From NCBI GenBank assembly GCA_016647705.1, contig CM028335.1, positions 18,516,905-18,580,904 on the forward strand: a stretch of 64,000 nt of DNA. The letters run 5' to 3'. Shown one piece after another: positions 1 through 45,075 of this stretch; position 1 is the first letter of the stretch, and each line of letters begins with the position of its first letter. The notes under the pieces were generated by a model. It was not told where the DNA came from and made no database searches. It saw only the letters and a list, made by a program, of their open reading frames with translations. Position numbers and translations under genes: made by a program. Origin of the DNA: Eucommia ulmoides. Taxonomy: Eukaryota > Streptophyta > Magnoliopsida > Garryales > Eucommiaceae.

Positions 1-1470
1 ATTAAAAAAATCCACTTTGACCCTTCAAAGTATGATAATTAGCAAAATATAAAATTTATTTTATTATTTTAAAATAAATTGTTATTTGTTTATTTTTTTT
101 GATTTAGTTAGTTAAATTTTAAGTTAAATTTAGTTAAATTTTAAGTTAAATTTAGGAATGTAGTTGTTTAATTTATAAATTTTAAATTAAAAATTGTGCA
201 CTTTGACCGCTCAAAATTATGCAAATTAGAAAAAAATATATATTGGTTTAAAATAAATTGTAAGTTAATTTGAGTTTAATTAAAAAAATCCACTTTGACC
301 CTTCAAAGTATGATAATTAGCAAAATATAAAATTTATTTTATTGTTTTAAAATAAATTGTTAGTTGTTTATTTTTTTTGATTTAGTTAGTTAAATTTTAA
401 GTTAAATTTAGGAATGTAGTTTTTTAATTTATAAATTTTAAATTAAAAATTGTGCACTTTGACCCCTCAAAATTATGCAAATTAGAAAAATATATATATT
501 GGTTTAAAATAAATTGTAAGTTAATTTGAGTTTAATTAAAAAAAATCCACTTTGACCCTTCAAAGTATGACAATTAGAAAAATATAAAATTTATTTTATT
601 GTTTTAAAATAAATTGTTAGTTGTTTAATTTTTTTTTATTTAGTTAGTTAAATTTTAAGTTAAATTTAGGAATGTAGTTGTTTAATTTATAAATTTTAAA
701 TTAAAAATTGTGCACTTTGACCCCTCAAAATTATGCAAATTAGAAAAATATATATATTGGTTTAAAATAAATTATAAGTTAATTTGAGTTTAATTAAAAA
801 AATCCACTTTGACCCTTCAAAGTATGATAATTAGCAAAATATAAAATTTATTTTATTGTTTTAAAATAAATTGTTAGTTGTTTATTTTTTTTGATTTAGT
901 TAGTTAAATTTAGGAATGTAGTTGTTTAATTTATAAATTTTAAATTAAAAATTGTGCACTTTGACCCCTCAAAATTATGCAAATTAGAAAAATATATATA
1001 TTGGTTTAAAATAAATTGTAAGTTAATTTGAGTTTAATTAAAAAAATCCACTTTGACCCTTCAAAGTATGACTATTAGAAAAATATAAAATTTATTTTAT
1101 TGTTTTAAAATAAATTGTTAGTTGTTTAATTTTTTTTTATTTAGTTAGTTAAATTTTAAGTTAAATTTAGGAATGTAGTTGTTTAATTTATAAATTTTAA
1201 ATTAAAAATTGTGCACTTTGACCCCTCAAAATTATGCAAATTAGAAAAATATATATATATTGGTTTAAAATAAATTGTAAGTTAATTTGAGTTTAATTAA
1301 AAAAATCCACTTTGACCCTTCAAAGTATGACAATTAGAAAAATATAAAATTTATTTTATTGTTTTAAAATAAATTGTTAGTTGTTTATTTTTTTTTATTT
1401 AGTTAGTTAAATTTTAAGTTAAATTTAGGAATGTAGTTGTTTAATTTATAAATTTTAAATTAAAAATTGT
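1..1470. repeat. AT-rich tandem array, unit about 258 bp, two-part monomers
   Basis: Six copies of a half-unit beginning CCACTTTGACCCTTCAAAG (near 11, 290, 546, 804, 1047 and 1306) alternate with five copies of a related half beginning GCACTTTGACCCCTCAAA (near 197, 453, 712, 955 and 1211). Each pair forms a unit of about 243-277 bp. The two halves share the CACTTTGACC..TCAAA head, a run of AAATATA, and TTTAAAATAAATTG, so the unit looks like an old dimer later amplified as a pair. The motif CTTTGA-CCCT-TCAAAG is a short inverted repeat. The array ends abruptly near 1470, about 95 bp before the MULE transposase start, and runs off the left edge. It could be the subterminal repeat zone of that MULE or an independent minisatellite. 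Confidence 0.9.
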
Positions 1471-1564
1471 GCATTGGTATAAGAACATACTTTTATGATT
1501 GAGTTTTAGTTGATGATATTATTTTCTTGTTTTGTTTTGCCTTTTGAAATGATAGTCGCTTGAA

Positions 1565-4297
1565 ATGGATCACGTCCGTTTGTTATTGTATTGGGGTGGT
1601 AGAATATTGGAAGGTACTGAATTCGGGATTAGTTACAGTACATCAGCTATAAAATCTTTGGTTGTCCATAGGGGAACAACCTTAGATGAATTAATTGAGA
1701 TGATAAAACCGTATGTTCTTGAGAATGAGACTGATGGGAATTTGAAACTGAAGTGTAGGATGCCGATGGCACTTTTCGGGGCGAATTGTAAATATACCCT
1801 ATTTTCTATCGGGGATGACTCAGCATTAAATCAAGTACTTGAGTTACCACTTTACATACTCTCGCTTCTTGCTGTTGAGGTGTATGTAGAGGTGGAACGA
1901 GCATTTGTTGATGGTTCGAATTTTTTCCCTGGAAGTGGTCATTTTACCAACTTATTGAGTCATAGTTTTAATCCGTACAGTAGCCAATCTGATGGCCAAT
2001 TTTTTGGCACCTTCCCCCAAGCAGTCCAGTCTAACTATATTGTCCCACCCCCTTACATTCCAGAACAATATCATTCCCACAGTACTCCCATGCCGCACCC
2101 CCAATCTGATCATGATCAGGGTACCAGCTCTGGTCTTCCACATCACCATTATTCACTGAATAGTCCACCACAACATGACACAAGTAATTATGGTGGTGAG
2201 TTTGATACAATTGATAGTCGTCATGATGTGTCAGAGGAAGAGTTAGATGCAGATGTTGCGTTTGACCCAGACGAAGTTGTAGATGCTGGGCCTAGTGGGC
2301 AAGGTAGTGAGAATCAACAATTGCCGTTGGAAAGGGATATTCCATTCTTCAATAACTTGGAATGGGGTGACGACGATGATATGGCAAAATACGAGCCAAA
2401 ATTGCGGAAAAAATTTTGGACACCAAAGATGGACGAATTTCGTGTTGGTATGGTCTTTAAGGATAAGGAACATGTGCAGCAAGCCGTTAAATATTACCAC
2501 GTGAAGAAAAACAAAGAGTTTCATGTGTTGGAAACGAACAAAAAGGTCTGGTCAGTTCATTGTTTGCATGGATGCAGTTGGAGATTGCGGGCGGGTAGGA
2601 AAAAAAGTCACGGCATGTTTCAGATTACGCAGTATGAAGGGCAGCACACATGTTTTTATAATCATACTGCTGTAGATCATAAAAATCTGGATTATGGACT
2701 CATTGCCAACCTAATACTTGGACAAGTCGAACAGGATCCAGAATTGAAGATTGGAGTGATTGTGGCTTACGTCAAGGAGTCTCAGGGATTCACCATCTCC
2801 TACTGAAAAGCTTGGATGGCTAGAGCTAAATCCATCGAGACCTTGTTTGGAAATTGGGACGAATCTTATCAGAAGTTGCCGAAGTTTATGTTCGCGTTGC
2901 AGCACTATAATCCGGGAATGATTGTCGAGTGGAGGACTGTGTCGACTGATATGCCTGCCTACAAGACGTTCGACATGGTATTTTGGGCATTCAAAGCTTC
3001 AGTTGACGGATGGCGTTATTGTCGCCCCGTAATCACCATCGACGGGACGCACTTGTATGGTAAATACGAGGGCAAGATTTTAATCGCCATTGGAATGACG
3101 CCGTCTAACAAGTGCTATCCATTGGCTTTCGCCATTGTACCGACAGAGGACTACCGATGCTGGCGATGGTTCATCTACATGCTTAAGAGGCATATTGTCG
3201 AAAATCGCCCTGAGGTAACATTGATATCGGACAGACACGGCGGCATTACTAGTGCGGTTGACAGTATCTGGCTTAATCAACAAAATGAGCCTGTCCGACA
3301 TCATCGATTTTGTTTGCGTCACCTTTGCAGCAATTTCAACAAGATTGCTAAAAATCAGAATCTCAAAGATCTTGCTTGGAATGCGGGTACTGCGACACAA
3401 ATTCGAAAATATAATGCTATCATGGAAGAGATAAAAAAAATTGATGTTCAGGCGCATGCATGGTTGAACAGTCATCCACCTTATAAATGGACCAGGGCAC
3501 ACGACGATGGTAAGCGTTGGGGAGTGATGACGACCAATTATGCAGAGGTATTTAACAACTGTTTGAAGGGTGCAAGAAATGTTCCAATTACTGCATCCGT
3601 GAAGATTACGTTCTACAGGATGGTTAAATACTTTGATATTGGTCGACAACAAGCTCTAAAGGACTCGGCCGATGGTTATGTATATGTTAAACACGTCGTT
3701 GAGAAAATACTGAAATCTTAAGCCAAGTCTAAAACATACGAAGTTCAAATATTCAATCGGTAATTTATTATTTTTTAATTATTTTCATGTTACATATAAC
3801 TGCATCGACACATATTTAATGTAATATAATTTTTTTTTTCTAGAGAGAACATGATCTACCATGTTAAAACTAGAAAGACTCTCATTGGGGGTCTGATCGC
3901 TCATGAAGTCACATTAGGTGATGACGCGAATTGCACATGTGGAAAGTATAAAATTTGGCGATATCCGTGCTCTCATATGCTTGCTGCCACCGAGTATAGT
4001 GGAGTTGATGCATTTCGCTATATTGCAGCTAAGTACACGATGACAAACCAATTGATGGCATGGGAGTCATCGTTTCGCCCGATTATTCACGAGGACTACT
4101 GGCCAGAGACCAATTTTCCAAACCTTATTCCAGATCATGACAGACTTCGGGTTGTTCATCGTGGTCGACCAAATTCCACTCGCATTCAAAACGAGATGGA
4201 TCAATCGCGGAGAATAATGACAAATCGTTGTGGTTTATGTTCTCAAACTGGACATGATAGGCGGAGGTGTCCATCCCGACCCCGTCATACGCCCAAT
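1565..4297 (+). pseudogene. Mutator-like (MULE/MuDR) transposase, decayed
   Basis: Likely start is ATG 1565; the N-terminal roughly 100 residues (MDHVRLLLYWGGR...) are the PB1-like domain common at the head of plant MULE transposases, followed by an acidic, proline-rich linker. The MuDR DNA-binding domain lies near codons 290-370. The MULE catalytic domain follows: first Asp in TIDGTHLYG (about 3040), second in LISDRHGG (about 3230), Glu in TTNYAEVFNN (about 3545). After an intron (3760-3843, GT..AG) come a SWIM zinc finger (CTCGKYKIWRYPCSHML) and a CCHC knuckle (CGLCSQTGHDRRRCP). Two in-frame stops, TGA 2804-2806 where relatives have Arg (ISY-R-KAW) and TAA 3719-3721, break an otherwise continuous frame. 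Cut-and-paste DNA transposition is the family role; this copy should not make full-length protein. Confidence 0.9.
3760..3843 (+). other. Intron of the MULE transposase
   Basis: Begins GTAATTTATT and ends with a T-rich tract and CTAG. Joining 3759 to 3844 keeps the reading phase (codon CG|A) and connects the catalytic domain to the SWIM zinc finger. Position and phase fit the flanking protein homology; splicing itself is inferred. Confidence 0.7.
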
Positions 4298-4300
4298 TAA

Positions 4301-4485
4301 TCTTGTCGGTTCATTATAATTATGTTTATGCTACTTCATTTGTTTGTTATGTCAACTTTTATATATTATAAATTCCATGCACACATTTCTTCATGATCAA
4401 TGCTATATTTTGTTTATAAATGTCATTAAATTTTAATTTCATACTAACAAATTTACCACAAGTGTTGACGGACCAAATTTCAGCC
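4301..4485. other. AT-rich spacer between transposase and MAIN-like gene
   Basis: About 185 bp of AT-rich DNA separates the transposase stop from the next gene on the same strand. It would have to hold the transposase 3' end and the promoter of the downstream gene; I see no clear TATA box or poly(A) signal that can be trusted in such AT-rich sequence. Confidence 0.5.
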
Positions 4486-6813
4486 ATGTCAATCCCTGGA
4501 CCAGAAGATGTTTCAGTTCTACATATGCAGGCGCAACATAGGTCTGAAGTAGTATGGGCAACACAGGTAAATATTTAGGCTATTGCATTATATTAATTTT
4601 TATATTTCAATTTTTAAAAAATTTAATGTTATTTATTGTGTCTTATTTAATGTTTCAGGATATTCGTTCTCTTGACTGTCCTGGATCCGATGGAGGAGAA
4701 TGGAGAGAAAACGTTCCCCCTCAAATTATACAATTAATAGAATCAGTCGGTTTCTACGGCCCGTTCAGGTTGTGGCCGAAGCGATTGGATAGGGCTCTCA
4801 TAACTGCATTGGTAGAGAGATGGCGTCCGGAAACCCACACTTTCCATCTACCCATTGGGGAGATGACCATCACATTACAGGACGTTGCCATCTTGTTGGG
4901 GTTACCCGTGCATGGGAAGCCGGTTATCGCCAATGAGCCAGCGCGAGCGGGACCCGAATGGCAAGCACTTTGCCTCCAGCTCCTTGGAGTAGTACCACCA
5001 GAGGCACATATTAGGAATGGGTGTTTGAAGCTCAAGTGGTTACGTAACACCTTTGCCGAAGTTCCTGAGGATGCCGACGAGGAAGTCATGCATTGCTACG
5101 CACGTGCGTATTACTTGCTTATACTTGGCCAGATGTTGCTGCCTGATAAATTGGAGAACAGCGTCAGGCTAATCTACCTCCCATTACTTAGTGACTTGAC
5201 ACCTAGCGTCAAGTATAGCTGGGGCAGTGCGACGCTTGCAGTCCTCTACCGCGAGCTATGTAAGGCGTCGAAGGCCAACACGAAAGACATAGCCGGTTGT
5301 CTATTTTTGTTGGAGTGTTGGGCCTGGGAGCGGTTGCCGAGACTTCAACCTGAAGTTATCCATGAACCCCAGTATGACATCGCAATCGCAGAGCTGGACT
5401 TCGGTAATGGTATGATGTTCCCAGCTGCTCCAAGGGGTGCTTGGTAACTAATTTGTATTTTATTTTTAATTTCATTTACCATGTAATAAATATTTATTTA
5501 TGGATATTAAACTTATGATTTATATGTTTGTTGTACAGGTGGACCCTCGAATTCAATTTAGAAAACTTGCCGATGCATGTTCTAGCGGTGTATCGCGATC
5601 AGTTAGATCGCTTGCAGAATGACGAGGTTACTTATTTATTTATATCAAAATTTAAATAAATTTATTTCTTTATTTATTTAAATAAATTTATATTTTGTTT
5701 TGACAGGTTATTTGGATGCCCTATATCTTGTCGACTTTGCCTCCATATACTACAGATGGAGAAGATATATGGATAGCATCGCTACCTCTCATTTGTTTCG
5801 AGGTCGTCGAATACACGTATCCCCTGCGCGTGCTACGACAGTTTAGTTATCGCCAAGGGGTTCCTCAGCCGGTAATTATGGATCGGGACTTGCACAAAAT
5901 GACTCGGCGATGATACTTTGGTGTAAACTGGACTGAGAAGCACCACGCACATATAGTTGCGTGAAATAGACGACGAGCACCAGATGTGCGCAGATTTCAG
6001 CAAGGGATAGGGGTTGACCAAGGATACATGGATTGGTATTGGAGAATCACACGAAGGATCTTGGTCAACCCGGTGTACCGACCTGAGTTTGGGTATCTAG
6101 CAACGGGAGGACGAGTTGTGTTAGAAGTATGGCCCCCATTTGATTGTACCATCTGTTTAGTTATATGAGTTTGATTATGTTGTTATTATTCATGTATTAA
6201 ATAACCAATTATATGTGTTTCGTAGGATACGGAGGTATCAAACCTGATACGCTTGAATGATCTAACTCTGCGGTCGGGTACTGCGGAATCAGGTATTGCA
6301 TTGTCTCATGCCATCAATGATGGCACCATTGGGAGGATGCACCGAGGAGTACCACGCCATGTGGCACCTGACGTTCCTCCATCTCCGTAGCCTGCACATC
6401 AGTCTCCTCATCAGCAATGGACTTCTGATGCCTACTATCCAGATAGTGTGGGTGATGTCGGACCATCCACATCGTACAACATGGGTGCTTATGACGGACC
6501 ATCTAGCACGTACGGATTGGGTGACGGTGCTGGGCCTTCCGACGTGTACCAGATGCACGACCCTTATTCGCATAAGCCATTGCAGCTGTCACCTTCATTC
6601 TTCACTCCTGCGATGGACGAAATTGTCTCAACTTCAGGCGTGAATCCTCCAATGGCATTTGTCCAACCGACAAGATTGGAAAGACAAGTGTCACCGGTGC
6701 CATGGTTGGGGGATGATGGACAAGTTACACAGCTTCATGACGAGATTGAGGAACCTCCGATTGCTCAACGCCGAGGGCGGAGGAACGTCCGACGTAGGCC
6801 TTGTGGTACATAG
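4486..6813 (+). pseudogene. MAIN-LIKE / plant mobile domain (PMD) gene, decayed
   Basis: Exon 1 (4486-4566, MSIPGPEDVS...) splices in phase to exon 2 (4659-5443), which carries the PMD core: GFYGPFRLWPKRLDRALITA, the ETHTFHLPIGEMTITLQDVA block, LLGLPVHGKPV and LKWLRNTF. Exons at 5539-5626 and 5707 onward continue the domain (DIWIASLPLICFEVVEY, LRQFSYRQGVPQP). Near 5996-6126 comes GYMDWYWRITRRILVNP, and after an acceptor near 6226 a Pro/Gln/Gly-rich tail ends at 6813. In-frame stops lie at 5911-5913, 5962-5964 and 6388-6390; at 5962 the context favours a former Trp. Phase across the last junction is not clean. PMD proteins occur both as host genes (MAIN, MAIL1: genome stability, silencing) and as passengers of MULEs; its place just downstream of a MULE transposase on the same strand suggests the latter. 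Confidence 0.85.
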
Positions 6814-7480
6814 TTAGTTAAATAGTAGATAGTTTAAGTATAGGATTGTAAATACAATTTTTTTGTAAATAATCCTTTTTTTTTTTTAACGTTTGTAGAG
6901 GTTAAAAAGTTGTTAATCTACCGTACATATTTATTCTTCTTGAATTTGAAAGAAAATTTTTCGAAGGTAGATATAATATAGACAAGGTATAACAAACGCA
7001 ATACATAACAAAGACAATACATAAAAAATAAAGTACATAACATCACGAAAAATAGTTGTCAAAAAAATATTAAAGTAACAAACTAACTAAGAAATTAAAC
7101 AAGTAATCTAACAAATTAAATTAACTAACTACTTAACAAATTAAATAAGTAAAGTAAATAACAAACAGATTAACTAAATAATAATTTATTCAAATTTTGA
7201 GATGTTAAAGTTCTTAATTTTTAATTAAATAACTAAATTAACAAATTAAATTAACAAAATAACTTAAAAAATAAATTAACTAAATTAATTATAAATTAAG
7301 TAAAAAATATAATAATCAAATTAACAAATATATTAAAATTACCTGAAAATCCGAGAGATGAAAGAGTTGTAAGAAGGGGTCGGTTGGAGAAGGTCGAGAG
7401 AGGAAAGAGTTCCAAACAGTTGCGAAAGGGGAAGGGGTTAGATTTGGCAGATTTTTTTTTTTTTTTTTTTTAAGATGGAT
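6814..7480. other. Gene-free AT-rich stretch
   Basis: No coding signal. From 7000 to 7330 it consists of short degenerate AACTAAATTAACAAATT-like words. A poly-T run of about 20 (7452-7471) directly precedes the hairpin cluster. Confidence 0.6.
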
Positions 7481-7738
7481 GGTCCCGGGGTTGGTAACCC
7501 CGGGACCCGTCAGCCGCCGTCGCCGGCTACGGCGGCTGTCCGGCATAACATCCCGAGATTACCAATCCCGGGATGGTCGCAGCTGAAGCTTGCACAGCTT
7601 GTGCAAGCTTCAGCTGGCTTATAGCTTGGTCCCGGGGTTGGTAACCCCGAGACCATTTGTCCAAAAAAAAAAAAAATCCGAAAATCTCGGGGTTGGCAAC
7701 CCCGGGATCTCAGTTCCCGAGGTTACCAACCCCGAAAT
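7481..7738. repeat. Cluster of seven consecutive GC-rich hairpins
   Basis: Seven palindromes follow one another in 258 bp. 7481-7507: 12-nt arms GGTCCCGGGGTT/AACCCCGGGACC, loop GGT. 7511-7538: arms CAGCCGCCGT/ACGGCGGCTG around GCCGGC. 7549-7575: CATCCCGAGATT/AATCCCGGGATG, loop ACC. 7580-7616: perfect 17-nt arms starting CAGCTGAAGCTTGCACA, loop GCT. 7628-7654: a near copy of the first. 7684-7708 and 7714-7737: shorter relatives. Five of the seven share the core CGGGGTT-GGT-AACCCCG in one or the other direction. The GC content contrasts sharply with the AT-rich surroundings. It is not coding in any frame I can recognise. It could be the end of the MULE-MAIN element or an independent foldback. 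Confidence 0.85.
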
Positions 7739-7760
7739 ACGTGGGTTCCGTAATTAAGTT

Positions 7761-8790
7761 AAAATAAATCTGTTGTCAGATTTTTTATTTTTTTTTATTT
7801 TTTATTTTATATTTATTACGTAAAGAACTCGATTGAAGAGATAGTTAATAGTTAACTCTCATTCATTACAAATCATGTTTTTCACTTTTAAATTTTACTA
7901 TATGATATGATATAAATATAATTTATCATTTTTATATTTGTAATTTTTAGAAATTTGTTTTTTAAAAAGTAAAATATATTTTTAATTCTTGCCACAACTT
8001 ATATGAGAAATAAAAACATAATTTTTTTTTAAATAAAAAGTCTAATTAGTAAATTATTTATAGTTTTTATTATTTATTGTAAAAAAAATATCTTTTATTT
8101 AAATAAAAAAATCTCACTATTTGAAATAGAAGAAAACTTTTAAAATTCTTTAAACCCATTATTGTAATAATAAATGACAATCAAATTCACTAAAATTATT
8201 ATATTAATAATAAATAATATTTAAAAATTAGAATTAATCTTAACCCTTCAAATAGGATTGGAGAGATAGAAAATCCTTGATTGTTATTCATTTTCAAAAG
8301 TTGACTTCCACATATAGATAACCTATAGATTATTATTTGTAATATTGGTTGGGGCACTTTGTATTGGCTCTTGTTTATCAAATATTCCCAAGTAAATATT
8401 AAAAGAATGTCAAGCTCTTGAAAACTGACATTTACATTTGTGTTATCTACTTTGGCAAATAACAAGTTTTTACCTAACTTAAAAATTAAATTACAATTTA
8501 ACATCTAATTCCTTTTGGATTTAATTGTATCAACTTAAAACAAAAAATAAAAATAAAAAATCAAGCAATATTAGAACGCTTTCAATATAAACAAGGGCCA
8601 TTTTTTGGGGCCTAAACCCACATTCTTCTTTTTATTTTATGAAAATTCTAATTTAAAAAATATATTATTTTTTATGACAATAATACCCCTCAATTAATTT
8701 TTTAATTATAAACATTAACTTTCGTTTTGGTACATAAAAGAAACAACAAAAACTAAGAGCACTTAACAAATGCCTCTGGGTCCATTTTCC
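7761..8790. other. AT-rich intergenic DNA, nothing recognised
   Basis: Homopolymer-rich, AT-rich sequence with short A and T tracts. No open frame with protein-like composition and no clear repeat structure was seen. Confidence 0.5.
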
Positions 8791-8793
8791 TAA

Positions 8794-9700
8794 ACAAGAA
8801 GTTCATCAGGGGGATTGAAAATTAGTTTAAATTCTTCCTTAATTTTTGTTCCTAAATTTGCTAGATAATTAGTGCATCGATTATTGTCTCTTGGCGCTAG
8901 TTGGACCATGTAACCATTAGCCTTCATCATTCTTTTACAGTTATTGATTCATGGCTTGAATTTGTGATTCTTTGGGCATTCTTCTAAAAATAGTTTTGTC
9001 AATTCTGTTGCATCAATCTTGACGATGATTCTTGGGTACCCTCCATTAGCCGCCATGGTTATGCCTTGATGGACTTCTCTTATTTCTACTTTTAGGTTGT
9101 TGCAACTAGTCACATGTCCATAAAAGCCAAAATACCAAACTCCCAGTTTGTCCCTCAACAATCTTCCATAATCTCATTTTCCGGTGTTTTTTTTAACACA
9201 TCCATTAGTGTTCAGCTTAAAGAATCCTGCACAAGGAGGTGACCATTTAGATGGCAACATTTACTTTTGGAGATGTTTTGGGGACAGAAAGAGTCAAGTA
9301 AATCATTTTTTAGTCTATTTTATTTTTTTGAACCACAATGCAGGTATCTCGGGAATTTCCTTCAATAACTTTATTGTTTCTGTCCTTCTAGATCTTTCAA
9401 ATAATAGCAATAAAAAAGTAAAAGGAAGAGGGAGACAACAACTTACCTTTCAAATTATTTTTAATCCAGCAACACAGATCTTTACAAAACTCTGCTCGAA
9501 TTGATGCAGACTAAAAAAAATTCAATTTTTCTTTGCTTTATTGCAAGTCCTTAGTACATGATCTATCGTTTCATTCACTTCCTTACTCCTTTGGCACATT
9601 GTAGTTATATCATTGGAGCAACTAGCAACATATTCATTTGTTACTAATTTTCCATGGAAGAGCAACTATAAAAATTATTTGGTATGAGAGAGAGACAAAA
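8794..9700 (-). pseudogene. LINE ORF2 C-terminal remnant (zf-RVT and RNase H)
   Basis: Read on the minus strand, the segment near 9540-9665 gives LFHGKLVTNEYVASCSNDIT followed by MCQRSKEVNETIDHVLRTC, the zinc-binding zf-RVT region that follows the reverse transcriptase in plant LINEs. Near 9190-9237 comes GFFKLNTNGCV, the start of the plant RNase H-like domain (RVT_3), continued by 9161-8949 (KLGVWYFGFYGHV, LKVEIREVHQGI, RIIVKIDATEL) and 8945-8797 (VQLAPRDNNRCTNYLANLG). Frame changes between the pieces show decay. The reverse transcriptase and endonuclease are absent, as expected for a 5'-truncated insertion, though a tail was not identified. Confidence 0.7.
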
Positions 9701-18216: not shown

Positions 18217-18538
18217 TGGGTTTGATGTGAAGGCCTTGTAAGATATTTATTTATTTATTATATTTTTTTAATCATTTGGTTTGGGTGGGGGTGGGGGGTT
18301 GTTGAAACCTTGTAGCGTATGGTTAGTGTGTGAAAAAAAAAAATTACGACATAGATTTTGAGGCCACGAGAATATTTGAATTAGATTTGAAGGAACTCGG
18401 TAAAATAGCCCCGTAACTTCGGGAGAAGGGGGCCTTCTCACAGAGGGGGTCGTAGTCACCATGCCCAAACGACTGTTTACCAAAAACACAGGTCTCCACA
18501 AAGTCGTAAGATCATGTATACCATTTGAAATCATTTAG
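18217..18538. other. Spacer between small gene and Rif1-like exons
   Basis: Contains a T/A-rich segment, a G-rich run near 18285-18300, and sequence without coding signal. It ends at a plausible splice acceptor (ATCATTTAG, 18538). The missing upstream exons of the Rif1-like gene are not here. Confidence 0.5.
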
Positions 18539-19483
18539 AAAGCTATGCCTACATCATTTACTAAGATTCTTGCTTTATCTAAAACTTGGCTGATGTCTTT
18601 TCATATTTTTTGTTCTCATAGTTCTGTTTCTGCTCCTGATTTCTGTGAAGTAAGCACTAAACAAACGGGTCCTTAATGCATTTTCCATTTAACCCTTTCC
18701 CTTTTAATTGTTTCTCCTCAGGCTATTTCAACCCCATTACTTCAGTGGCTATCACACTCAAAAATCAAAGACGAGAACACCATTCGTGAACTCCAACTTT
18801 TATGGAAAGAAATTCTCAATTCTTTGAAAATAAGTCAGCCGCCATTAACATTCGACTCCTCCTTCCAAGAGCTTCAGTCGCCCCTCCTTGAAACGACTCT
18901 CAACCACCCAAATCCCTTCATTTCCAATTTTACCGTAAAATTTTGGAATTCCACTTACGGGCAACAAACGAGCCTTAACTACCCCAAAAAATTAGTACCT
19001 TTATTAGATAAACTCTCAAGAAATGGAAAAATATTCATGTGCAACAGAACACGAAACAAAGTAGAAGTTCCTCAGAGATATAGTGTGAGAAGTGCAAATC
19101 ACAACATGATTACAAAAAGAGTTGAATTTGTGGAGGAACCGATTAATGGTTTGTCCAAACAAGGTGATAAGTCTTGCTTGGTTTCAAAAAGAGTTGAGTT
19201 TGTAGAGGAACCGGTTAGTGGGATGTTTGAACAAGCTGGTAAGTCTAGTTTTGGTTCAAAAAAAGTAGAATTTTTGGAGGAAACGGTTTACGGGTTGTTT
19301 GAACGAGGCGCTAAGTCTTGTTTGGGTTCAAAAAGAAAAAAATGTGAATTGACGGAGCATCAGAAGGAAGTGAGGCGAGCACAACAAGGAAGATCGAGGG
19401 ACTGTGACGGGCGTGGACCGGGGGTTCGGACTAACACTGGTGTAGATTTCTCTCAGGGGAATGAGGATTCACAGGATAGCTAG
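18539..19483 (+). pseudogene. C-terminal exons of a Rif1-like gene (fragment)
   Basis: Two exons remain. 18539-18649 (AMPTSFTKILALSKTWLMSF..) follows an acceptor and ends at donor GAA|GTAAGC. 18722-19483 continues in phase (ISTPLLQWLSHSKIKDENTI) to a TAG stop. The segment PLLETTLNHPNPFISNFTVK, the WNSTYG..NYPKKLVPLLDKLS block and the tail KKCELTEHQKEVRRAQQGR..DFSQGNEDSQ match, from memory, the C-terminal part of plant homologues of RIF1, a telomere/replication-timing factor. A three-fold repeat K(R/K)VEF(V/L)EE(P/T) occurs at about 19110, 19190 and 19270. The large N-terminal HEAT-repeat part is absent upstream in this window, so this is a duplicated or severed fragment. The exons themselves are open. 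Confidence 0.6.
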
Positions 19484-31159: not shown

Positions 31160-31499
31160 TTGAGGGGGAAAAACCAAAATAAACACCTTCCATATTTGAG
31201 AAACCTTGAAGACTTCAGAGCATCGACTACTTCCTTTCCCTTTGCTGTCGTTTTTCATTGCCTTCGCCGTCATCCATCCAAACCACATCCATCACCGGCG
31301 CCGATCAAAACCCTATCCAACGCCATCGTATTTTATTTCCTTGGACGATGTCTTTGAGGCAGCTCGGTCCAGCAGCACATCGTAGCAGTCTCTCACCTGT
31401 GTGGTCCCTCATAGCAACCCAATTTCAATCAATTTTAGTCAATTTCAGAGATGAACAAAAAGGTAATAAAAACCCTAACAACCAATGTCAGTGAGTTGT
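31160..31499 (+). other. Gene-leader-like segment ahead of the 91-bp repeat array
   Basis: A GC-richer stretch (CCATCACCGGCGCCGATC, CTCGGTCCAGCAGCAC) among AT-rich DNA. It ends with ATGAACAAAAAG|GTAATA (ATG near 31451), which reads as a short coding start followed by a splice donor. It may be the first exon or a captured leader of the downstream Ulp1-like gene; there is no homology to support more. Confidence 0.3.
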
Positions 31500-32405
31500 T
31501 TTGTATTTTCCTCTTCTTTCTTTTTATTGTTGATATTTGGGTTGTTGAGATAGTTAATGTATAGCAAAAATCCCATATTGAAGTCTTATTCTTGAATTTC
31601 CCTCTGGTTTCTTTTCGTTGGTGATGTTTGAGTTCTTGAGATAATTACTGTGTAGCAAAATCCAATATCGAAGTCTTGGATTTTTGAATTTCCTTCTTCT
31701 TCCTTTTCATTGTTGATGTTTTGTGTTGTTGAGATAGTTAATGTGTAGCAAAAATCCCATATTGAAGTCTTGTTTTTGAATTTTCCTCTGGTTCCTTTTT
31801 GTTGGTGATGTTTGAGTTCTTGAGATAGTTCCTGTATAGCAAAAATCTAATATTAAAGTCTTGATTTTTTAATTTTCCTCTTCTTCCTTTTCATTGTTGA
31901 TATTTTGGGTTGTCGATATAGTTAATGTGTAGTAAAAATCCAATATTGAAGTTTTGCTTTGAATTTCCCTATGGTTCCTTTTCGTTGGTGATGTTTGAGT
32001 TATTGATATAGTTATTGTGTAACAAAAATCCAATATTGAAGTCTTGTTTTGAGTTTCTCTCTTGTTCTTTTTTCATTGTTGATGTTTGAGTTATTGAATT
32101 AGTTGCTATGTAGCAAAAATCCAAACTTGAAGTCTTGCTTTGAATTTTTCTCTTCTTCCTTTTCATTGTTGATATTTGAGTTGTTGAGATAATTACTGTG
32201 TAGCAAAAATCAAATATTTAAGCCTTGTTTTGAATTTTGCTATGGTTCCTTTTCGTTGATGATGTTTGAGTTTGTTGAAATTGTTTCTGTGTAGCAAAAA
32301 TCCAATATTAGAGTCTTGTTTTGAATTTTCCTCTTCATTCTTTTCATTGTTGATGTTTGAGTTGTCGAAATAGTTACTGTGTAGCAAAATCCAATATAGA
32401 GATTT
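31500..32405. repeat. Tandem repeat, ten units of about 91 bp in alternating types
   Basis: The anchor word GTAGCAAAAATCCAATATTGAAGTCTTG or a close variant recurs at 31563, 31654, 31747, 31838, 31931, 32021, 32112, 32203, 32293 and 32383, spacing 90-93 bp. For most of the array, units with TTTTCATTGTTGATGTTTG alternate with units carrying TTTTCGTTGGTGATGTTTG, so the higher-order period is about 182 bp. It immediately precedes the Ulp1-like gene of the second MULE and may be its subterminal repeat zone. Confidence 0.9.
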
Positions 32406-40308: not shown

Positions 40309-41552
40309 GGGAAAAGTACATTTTAAACCCTCTAGGTATTGACACATTTTAAAATTGTCCCTCTCCGTTTGGGCGTTTAATTTTAAACCCTGTAGGTATC
40401 AGCACATGTTTATTCGGTCCTTTTGTCAAAAAATCTGTCAAAATTAATTGAATTTTGAGGACAAAATAGTCTTTTTTCATATTTTTATTTTTTAATCTTT
40501 TTTCATTTTCTTTTATTCTTTTCTCTCTTTTGCTCCTTCTTTTTCCTCCCTCCCTCCTTCCTTCCTCTTTTCTCCCTCCCTGTTGTGGCCGGCGAGGAGA
40601 GAGAGGGAGAGAGAAGATGAGGGAAGAAGGAATAGAAAGAGAGGGAGGGAGGAAGGAGGAAGAGAGAGAGAGATAGAGAAATGTAGAAAAAAAAATAATA
40701 AAAAGAAAAAAAAATCATTAAAAATTAAAAATATATAAAAAAGACTAATTTACCCCTCTATTCTATTAGTTTTGACAGATTTTTTTTATAGAAGAACCGA
40801 ATAAAAACTTGCTGATACTTAGAGGTAGGGCTGACAAAACAGGTAACAGGTCGTGTACCAGGTCATTACATGATAACACAAAACACGATAAGACCCAAAC
40901 ACAAACACGACACGATAAATATATCGTGTCAGACTACCCAAACACGAACACAACACAAAAATTATCGTGTTAACACGACACGACACGATAATTTTTCGTG
41001 TCACACGATGACACAAAACCTATCAAGCAAACACGACACGATAAGACCTGATACGTTTCCATTACACATTAACCTACCCATTATACGTTAATGACGTGTT
41101 AACCTGTTAAGTTGACTAAATGAGTAGAGTTAGGAAAATGTGAATATATATATTAGGTACTAAATTATAATATTTGATTTTATAATATTTGATAATTTGG
41201 GGTTGTAAAAATAATTTATTAAATTAATGGGTAACCTATTAGATCTCAAGTTATCGTGTAACCTGAATATACGAAATTCTTATCGTGTCTTATCGTGTAA
41301 CCTATTGGGTTATCAGGTCAACCTGATAACCTGCACTATTTCTTATCGGGTTATCGGGTCTGACACGATAACGACCCGGTACCTGATAAGCAAAATCTAG
41401 ACCTGATAATTTCGTATTGATCTCGTGTCGTGTCATTGTGTAAATACCTGTTTTGCCAGTCTCACCTAAAGGGTTTAAAATGAAATGCTCAAATGGAGAG
41501 GGACTATTTAGAAATGTGTTAATACCTAGAGGGTTTAAAATGTACTTTTTCC
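40309..41552. mobile_element. Mutator-type foldback MITE, full-length inverted repeat, with nested hAT MITE
   Basis: Left end GGGAAAAGTACATTTTAAAC and right end, reversed, GGAAAAAGTACATTTTAAAC. Flanked by a perfect 9-bp duplication TAATATTTA (40300-40308, 41553-41561), the Mutator length. The two arms pair over nearly their whole length (for example ACCCTCTAGGTATTGACACA against its complement near 41515), and even the pyrimidine-rich middle (40500-40580) pairs with the purine-rich block (40595-40730); the turn is near 40585-40597. Removing the nested hAT-type MITE (40826-41464 plus its duplication) leaves about 597 bp. It encodes nothing. Such long hairpins are potential sources of small RNAs. 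Confidence 0.9.
40826..41464. mobile_element. hAT-type non-autonomous element (MITE), 639 bp
   Basis: Left end TAGGGCTGACAAAACAGG and right end, reversed, TGAGACTGGCAAAACAGG (15 of 18 match). The flanks CTTAGAGG (40818-40825) and CCTAAAGG (41465-41472) are an 8-bp target duplication with two differences. The interior is packed with ACACGATAA/TTATCGTGT words in both directions and has no coding capacity. It is inserted in the right arm of the Mutator-type MITE, so it is the younger of the two. Confidence 0.85.
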
Positions 41553-41595: not shown

Positions 41596-41975
41596 ATATT
41601 CAAATCAGTATGAATATAAAGCTGTATTTTTTAGTGGTATGGAAATTGTTGTACATCAAGGTTTAAGCTTGTTGTGTTGTCCTGGTTTTAAATATTGTTG
41701 TGCAACAATTTTTAATATTTCCTGGTTTGAATATTGCTAAAAGCCGAGGGTTCAGTTCCTAGTTTAATGTCGCTGTATTTTTTAGGGGAAAAATACAGCG
41801 ACATTAAACTAGGAACTGAACCCTCGGCTTTTAGCAATATTCAAACCAAGAAATATTAAAAATTGTTGCACAACAATATTTAAAACCAGGACAACACAAC
41901 AAGCTTAAACCTTGATGTACAACAATTTCCATACCACTAAAAAATACAGCTTTATATTCATACCGATTTGAATAT
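41596..41975. repeat. Near-perfect 380-bp palindrome (arms about 188 bp)
   Basis: The arm from 41596 (ATATTCAAATCAGTATGAAT) is repeated in reverse ending at 41975, turning at about 41784-41788 (TTTAGGGG). I count two substitutions and one homopolymer-length difference over about 188 bp. The arms contain copies of the TTGTTGCACAACAATATTTA repeat found elsewhere in this MULE neighbourhood. No terminal repeats or target duplication of a known element were found. Confidence 0.9.
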
Positions 41976-43236: not shown

Positions 43237-45075
43237 TGATAGGTGTAAAATACTTACGTATTTTCAAACCGATTTTGTTAGTTTTCGAGTACGTTTATAG
43301 TTATTTTTATGTGTTTTAATATATTTTTATTCTTTTTGTATTAAAACAGGTGCGTGGGGTGAAAAGGTATGAAATTGGAACAAAAACGATGTGATCGAAC
43401 TAAAGCGAACGAAGTTACGGTGGATAAATGAGCAAGGAGGCAACATTGTGAAAGAATCCCATCGCCTAGGCATCCAGACCTTTGCCTAGGCTGTGAAGAT
43501 GCTGAAAACATTTCCAAGTCCACCGCCTACTTCTTCGCCTAAGCGGTCACCAAACCTGAAAAATCAGTACATGTGCTGTAACTTCAAGGCTATTTTGGAC
43601 TACGATGAAATATGATTTTGGAAACACTCAAAACATGGAAGTTATAGATCTGTTTCTTATATTTTCATAGGTTTTTGAATCACCTCAATCGAAGTTCGGA
43701 TAAAGAAGTTACAGTCAAAACAAAATGCAAACCTGCAGTTTCTCGGCCTAGGCGAAAAATTCCACCGCCTAGGCGGAAATCCGGCAGAAAGTTAACCAAC
43801 CTACCTGCGCCTAGGTGGAAAATTCCACCACCTAGGCAGAAATTTGGAAGAAAGTTAACCGACCTAACTTCGCCTAGGCGAAAACCTCTACACAGTGAGA
43901 TATTTTTGAGATATTTTTTGGCCTATTTATACCCTTCTCTCCTCCTCTCTTCTGATCTTCTTCAGCTCCTAAGGCCTTAGGCTATACTTTAGGGTTAGGT
44001 TAGGGATTTTTGAGGGAGAGCTCTCAACCCGAGGTGGAGGATGAAGAGGGAAGCAATTGGTGGACAGTTCTAGCGACTATTCTTCGGATATTGGCTAAGT
44101 TGCTCGTTTCTTCTCTTTGTTTTCTATATTTTGGTAGTTGTTGAGTATGTTTACGCCATTTTACATTGTATACATGGTTATGGCCATTGGCTAAACAGAG
44201 GTTGTATAGGGATTATTAATATAATTTATGAAAACGTTGTTTAGTTGAATTTGTGTTTTGTTTGCGATTGTTCTTCGTTATGTTGATTGTGTGTGCCATA
44301 TTGTTTGTTTATATTGCTTAGATTTACATATCAAGAATACGGGGTTTGACAAATCCCAGATTCGGACTAGAATAAACGAACGCCACAATCCTATAACCCG
44401 GTCGGGGTTTAGATTGTGGACAATCGATGACGTTGGGGCAAGACTCACATTACCTAGAGTCGTTAAGACGTTGAGGGGGACTTCGTTGTTGATGTGAAGT
44501 CACGTATTCCCTCGTCTTACACTCGGGAGAGGTGGCGAGAGAGTTTTAGAACGGAGATTGTCGATAGGGTAAACACAACGCGACGATCCAATATCCCGGG
44601 AGGGAGTTGAATTGTGTGCAATCAATGACGTTAGGCCAAGACTCACGCGGTCTAGGGTCGTTAAGACGTTGAAGGAGATTTTTTCGTTGACACGAAATCG
44701 CGTATTCCCCGTTTTACACTCGGAAGAGGTGGCAGAGGAGTTTACGAATTGAGATTGTCATATAAGTCGAACGTCGTTAACATAAACTAAAACAAGACTG
44801 AACACGTATTCGTAAACGAAACTAATCCCTAGACAACTTATTCTCTCAAAACTATCCCATATTAATATTAGTATTAGTATAGTTAAATTAGGCTATATTA
44901 GTATTAGTATTAATTAATTATATTTCATTTTTGTCGCCTAGATAAAGTTAGGTTATGACAATCGCGGTATTCGATAGTAACAACACCAATCTCTATGGAT
45001 ACGATACCCGACCGAAAGGTCCACTATACTAAAACTTTATCTGTACGCTTGCGGTGAAAGTGGCAGCGCTTATTT
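43237..45075. mobile_element. Non-coding LTR-retroelement-like block inside the Pack-MULE (candidate)
   Basis: Starts near TGATAGGTGTAAAATACTTA and ends near TACTAAAACTTTATCTGTAC followed by GCTTGCGGTG, the style of 3' ends of some plant non-coding LTR elements. The first part has repeated CGCCTAGGCG-type words (43465-43890); 44380-44770 is a direct duplication of about 190 bp (shared GGGTCGTTAAGACGTTGA and CGTATTCCC). No open reading frame. Boundaries and class are uncertain; no target duplication seen. Treated as a fossil. Confidence 0.4.
44380..44775. repeat. Direct duplication, two units of about 190 bp
   Basis: Both units carry GACAATCGATGACGTTGGGG/TGCAATCAATGACGTTAGGC, CAAGACTCAC, GTCGTTAAGACGTTGA, a TCGTTGA.GTGAAGTC-like word and ACACTCGG.AGAGGTGGC, in the same order. 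Confidence 0.8.

Follow-up and report, generated by a model that had tools for sequence, protein, structure and literature searches.

MULEs that have captured a PMD gene carry a MULE transposase and a PMD together, and in grasses and Amborella PMD-C forms fusions with MULE transposases, according to passages of PMC5418596. The same passages call the use of PMDs by MULEs in anti-silencing a "tempting speculation"; "hairpin" and "palindrom" are absent from the main text of that paper. The window studied here, the whole 64,000-nt (64-kb) stretch of Eucommia ulmoides DNA that was analysed, likewise holds MULE and PMD domains, which lie in the same orientation directly upstream of a block of successive GC-rich hairpins.

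The maize element MuDR likewise combines a MuDR-type transposase with cis-sites and promoters near its ends (excerpts of PMC3440606); the excerpts describe no palindrome cluster, whereas at the present locus no terminal repeat was observed in the window. Arabidopsis VANDAL21 and VANC offer a similar combination of a MULE-type element, an extra protein and repeated noncoding cis-motifs, there tandemly repeated in introns and upstream sequence (portions of PMC5735166 and PMC10398659). In those portions the VANC21 motifs of VANDAL21 share one orientation, whereas the motifs here are palindromic. The VANC21 motif YAGTATTAY does not occur in positions 1-29764 and has six matches in the 64 kb (3.4 expected); none of the six falls in 1-9000 and none in the MULE, so the motif arrays of the VANDAL/VANC21 system were not found at this locus. 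The citrus non-TIR MULE CitMule likewise has short degenerate inverted motifs near its ends, but the sections of PMC4334395 that describe it, which also give 9-11 bp for the MULE target site duplication, mention no hairpin cluster at the ends. The Tm1 Mutator/Foldback elements of root-knot nematodes resemble the locus in their Mutator-type transposase and composite foldback ends (extracts of PMC3169594), but the composite TIRs and 9-bp duplications of Tm1 were not seen here in the window.

A prokaryotic or viral origin was rejected. The exact 17-nt core of the hairpins described below was found in five stretches of viral contigs and a degenerate palindrome in three, and at 8/8 places the match was isolated and without an array when the 251-701 bases around each (~315 for L001) were read by eye. 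These matches represent about five independent places, since L002 and L003 appear to be one sequence found twice, as do L006 and L007, and L001/L004 have related context. The exact 21-nt core had no match in prokaryotic genome contigs, and comparison of 7450-7800 with plasmids gave a single match of 28 nt (E 0.3). Mitochondrial double-hairpin elements and the mobile GC clusters of yeast also consist of short, GC-rich hairpins set in AT-rich DNA; these are organellar, whereas the block adjoins a nuclear-type transposon. The PMD-related 'DOWN' motif CATGCAGTTT, linked to MAIN and MAIL1 in parts of PMC9899485 and PMC7156037, has no exact copy on either strand of the window. In the open-licence literature, judged mostly from listings, no description of the seven-hairpin layout was found, and core-derived strings searched as text occurred in 0 papers.

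The MULE and PMD genes and the array-type DNA around them

The transposase region (1565-4300, plus strand) encodes DBD_Tnp_Mut, MULE and SWIM in one frame (Pfam matches PF03108 at 1.4e-10, PF10551 at 1e-16 and PF04434 at 1.3e-7), and is thus that of a MULE with both DNA-binding and SWIM domains. The frame is broken by one stop at 2804 and by five more within 3719-3827, where there may be an intron. Adjoining the transposase is the PMD gene region (4554-6813, plus strand), in which the ORF 4554-5447 covers positions 12-196 of the 347 in the PMD profile; its match to PF10536 (plant mobile domain) in 4554-5444 reaches 1.2e-59, which makes this a PMD-carrying MULE. Later ORFs of the PMD region extend to 6813; among them, 6448-6813 gave no match to Pfam.

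Upstream of the transposase lies a tandem array with a period of 257 (1-1473, plus strand; TRF 130-1473, 5.3 copies), whose similarity runs to the start of the window. An inverted and diverged copy of the 257-bp array unit is present on the other side of the genes, just inside the hairpin block (7193-7339, minus strand), and aligns with 66-218 at 73% over 154 columns (E 4e-14). When 7190-7345 was compared with the 5' array the inverted score was 76, with a mean of 36.3 and a maximum of 52 in 200 shuffles; in direct orientation it was 37 (shuffle maximum 43). Seven control stretches from 7740 onward (GC 0.17-0.32), which are less AT-rich than 7190-7345, gave inverted scores of 22 to 34, and 7050-7200 scored 40, within its own shuffles (maximum 48). 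A 21-nt array marker, picked after that alignment had been seen, has five exact occurrences in the array and a single inverted one with three mismatches, at 7193-7213 (0.02 expected in all). Outside the block, the T-rich 7759-7800 shows a weak direct-sense match to the array (E 5e-5).

Array-type DNA thus lies on both flanks of the genes, in opposite senses, and the hairpins sit just outside the 3' stretch. Being related to the 5' array unit in inverted sense, 7193-7339 reads as a putative 3' subterminal inverted repeat of the element, which would place the block outside that repeat and thus where the terminal region would be expected. Neither a terminal inverted repeat nor a target duplication of the MULE was seen within the window, nor was the element's actual end found there; at the 5' side, a mirror image of the block would fall to the left of base 1. 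The ratio of observed to expected CpG is 0.93 in the block, 0.90 in 1565-6813, 1.12 in 7345-7450 and 0.49 in 7738-9200; the argument from CpG is uneven, since the 5' array, supposedly element DNA, stands at 0.11.

Between the inverted repeat and the hairpins there is a pyrimidine-rich stretch (7343-7445, minus strand) that ends in a splice-donor-like CAG/GTAA at 7343/7342. Pyrimidines make up 74% of the minus strand over 7345-7445, a bias equalled on either strand in 0.6% of sampled 101-bp windows, but the donor-like 7-mer is no rarity, with nine occurrences in the window, counting both strands. The stretch is a possible 5' leader of a minus-strand transcript from the 3' end. If the leader is real, transcription would begin next to the hairpins and the product would be spliced into array-type DNA, and at the 5' end the transposase transcript might be spliced into array-type DNA in a similar way. 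The TIRs of maize MuDR, in which passages of PMC3440606 place the MURA site and promoters, provide a precedent.

Architecture of the hairpin block

The block (7481-7738, 258 bp) consists, as had been noticed in a preliminary description, of seven successive palindromes. Six are strong, with Watson-Crick pairing at 72/75 arm pairs, and one (H7) is decayed, with 7/11, giving 79/86 for all seven together. Five of them, H1, H3, H5, H6 and H7, were correctly recognised as variants of one 17-nt core in either direction, CGGGGTTGGTAACCCCG (CGGGGTT-GGT-AACCCCG), which is exact in H1 and H5, has one mismatch in H6 and H7 and three in H3. H1 (7481-7507) has perfect 12-bp arms and the loop GGT; H3 (7549-7575) carries the core palindrome in the inverted sense, with the loop ACC and 11/12 pairs; H5 (7627-7655, 12/13 pairs) shares 96% identity with H1 across 28 nt; H6 (7684-7708) has the loop GGC and 10/11 pairs; and the decayed H7 (7714-7738) is again in the inverted sense. 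The core is missing from H2 (7511-7538), which is GC-rich with perfect 10-bp arms, and from H4 (7580-7616), the hairpin already singled out for its perfect 17-nt arms, which has the loop GCT. The spacer is 3 nt in six of the seven palindromes and 8 nt in H2.

The palindromes are nested in larger ones. The T-run with H1 pairs with H5 and the A-run in a foldback (7459-7676) whose 49-nt arms, 82% complementary, enclose H1-H5, and an imperfect 8-nt direct repeat lies around the block; a foldback transposon would have long composite terminal inverted repeats at its two ends and a target duplication on either side. H6 and H7 together form a palindrome with 27-nt arms. T and A homopolymers had been said to flank all the hairpins; there is in fact a single T20 to the left of the block (7452-7471) and a single A14 between H5 and H6 (7663-7676). 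The surroundings had also been described as AT-rich, which holds for the right flank (7739-7999, GC 0.18 against 0.58 in the block) but not for the left neighbour (7345-7450, GC 0.48). The many CG and CCGG sites, which the preliminary description linked to a possible replication or methylation hotspot, are there, with 20 CG and 7 CCGG, and the block also holds five of the seven CCCGGG in the window.

A search of the 64 kb on both strands, allowing up to three mismatches, placed 8/8 matches to the core inside the block (0.04 expected). The block has six hairpins with arms of at least 11, loops of 3-4 nt and at most one mismatch; 2000 dinucleotide shuffles of its sequence averaged 0.0085 such hairpins and never held more than 1. 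Among sampled 258-bp stretches that do not overlap the block, the best had three (at 41625, within another palindrome). When the hairpins were folded singly as DNA, H1, H2, H4, H5 and H6 were each matched by 0/200 shuffles and H3 by 2/200, while H7 was weak (-2.1 kcal/mol, equalled by 26/200). The fold of a 276-nt strand gave z = -12.9 as DNA, -14.7 as minus-strand RNA and -13.6 as plus-strand RNA; folds of either strand are much more stable than those of shuffles. Of the seven arm mismatches one is T-T, and the other six set C against A or T against G, which is what single transitions would produce. Three core pairs vary on both sides across the five copies with pairing kept, but this covariation is weak and suggestive only, its five measures being reached by 27, 98, 29, 355 and 29 of 500 shuffles.

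Possible origins and roles of the block

The best explanation, tentative and close to evenly balanced, takes the block for a cis module of the PMD-encoding MULE, terminal or on the promoter side, made up of palindromic protein-binding sites. Each palindrome would most likely be a symmetric site for a dimeric protein, be it the transposase, the PMD protein or a host factor; together the palindromes would mark the element end for transposition and/or serve an inward-reading promoter. Cruciform extrusion is eased by AT-rich flanks, and the arms here may extrude as small cruciforms beside AT-rich, easily melted DNA; fold-back copying may keep the arms matched. In favour of a cis module are the five core palindromes, in both senses and confined to the block within 64 kb, along with the MULE and PMD domains upstream, the inverted array match, the core pairs that vary with pairing kept, the CpG ratios of block and genes, the pyrimidine-rich stretch and the MuDR precedent. 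Against it are H2 and H4, which lack the core, the inverted array copy, which is ~73% identical and AT-rich, the low inverted score of 7050-7200, the direct-sense match at 7759-7800, and the two 8-mers that precede the T-runs at 7452 and 7781, whose 7/8 agreement points to a separate insertion. Among the three ideas of the preliminary description, a foldback module of a MULE-MAIN element end is the best supported, inasmuch as the MULE and PMD domains are real and the block lies outside the putative 3' subterminal repeat; we infer, beyond this, that the element includes the block itself. If a palindromic cluster does lie at the end of a PMD-MULE it would offer a concrete DNA target, and the end of a MULE would be made of repeated small hairpins and not of one long inverted repeat. 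A wider proposal, that PMD-MULEs own a palindromic cis-array at each end which the PMD protein recognises in order to escape silencing, so that the array of hairpin sites would be a second anti-silencing system parallel to VANC, is judged very unlikely as a whole.

The main rival, somewhat unlikely, is an independent small insertion in or next to the MULE, either a retroposed structured RNA or a foldback element. On the minus strand it would read as a hairpin-rich body ending in A20, since the T20 at 7452-7471 becomes a poly(A) tail, with the imperfect direct repeat before the two T-runs as a short target duplication. Only one of the four T-run pairs that span the block agrees at 7/8 (the others at 2, 3 and 2), and among T-run pairs of the window separated by 200-450 bp 4/423 agree, or 2/415 once that pair and those inside the array are left out; the chance of such a flanking repeat is ~2% for four pairs, in a test chosen after the repeat was seen. 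The step in GC from the block to its right flank is also as expected of an insertion, but the left neighbour is GC-richer too, the block has no Rfam family match at gathering thresholds, and the internal A14 and the nested foldbacks are ill-suited to one simple retroposed RNA. Generation of the palindromes by template switching or fold-back repair, which would also keep them matched as a neutral and functionless by-product, is unlikely; it would account for the nesting of palindromes in larger ones and for another 380-bp near-perfect palindrome in the same window (41596-41975), but one core recurs here five times and in both senses, and a process acting only locally would not have to draw repeatedly on the same core. 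It is distinctly unlikely that the block is a source of structured or double-stranded RNA, the folded transcripts of which would feed small-RNA silencing of the MULE, although portions of PMC10398659 state that siRNA often originates from long TIRs of Mutator-like elements. The folds are very stable on both strands, and five of the seven arm mismatches become wobbles in minus-strand RNA, with one in plus-strand RNA and one in neither, numbers too small to weigh. The stability, however, follows directly from the palindromes, which are present on both strands, and the individual arms, at 10-17 bp, are short substrates for Dicer-like enzymes. The structured RNA of the preliminary description thus gains nothing beyond the palindromes themselves.

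Several other features of the window were recorded. The 380-bp palindrome at 41596-41975 has an opposite-strand self-match of 97% and is perhaps a foldback or MITE-type element. The only Rfam match in the window at gathering thresholds is a fragment of bacterial-type LSU rRNA (18388-18553), perhaps organelle-derived DNA in the nuclear genome. A further tandem array, at 31496-32397, has a 91/181-bp unit in 9.9 or 5.0 copies. Short inverted repeats of the GCCTAGGC type occupy 43464-43884, with a 63-bp tandem unit at 43746-43884, and many short ACACGA/TCGTGT and GGTTATC/GATAACC motifs in both senses were seen by eye in 40900-41440.
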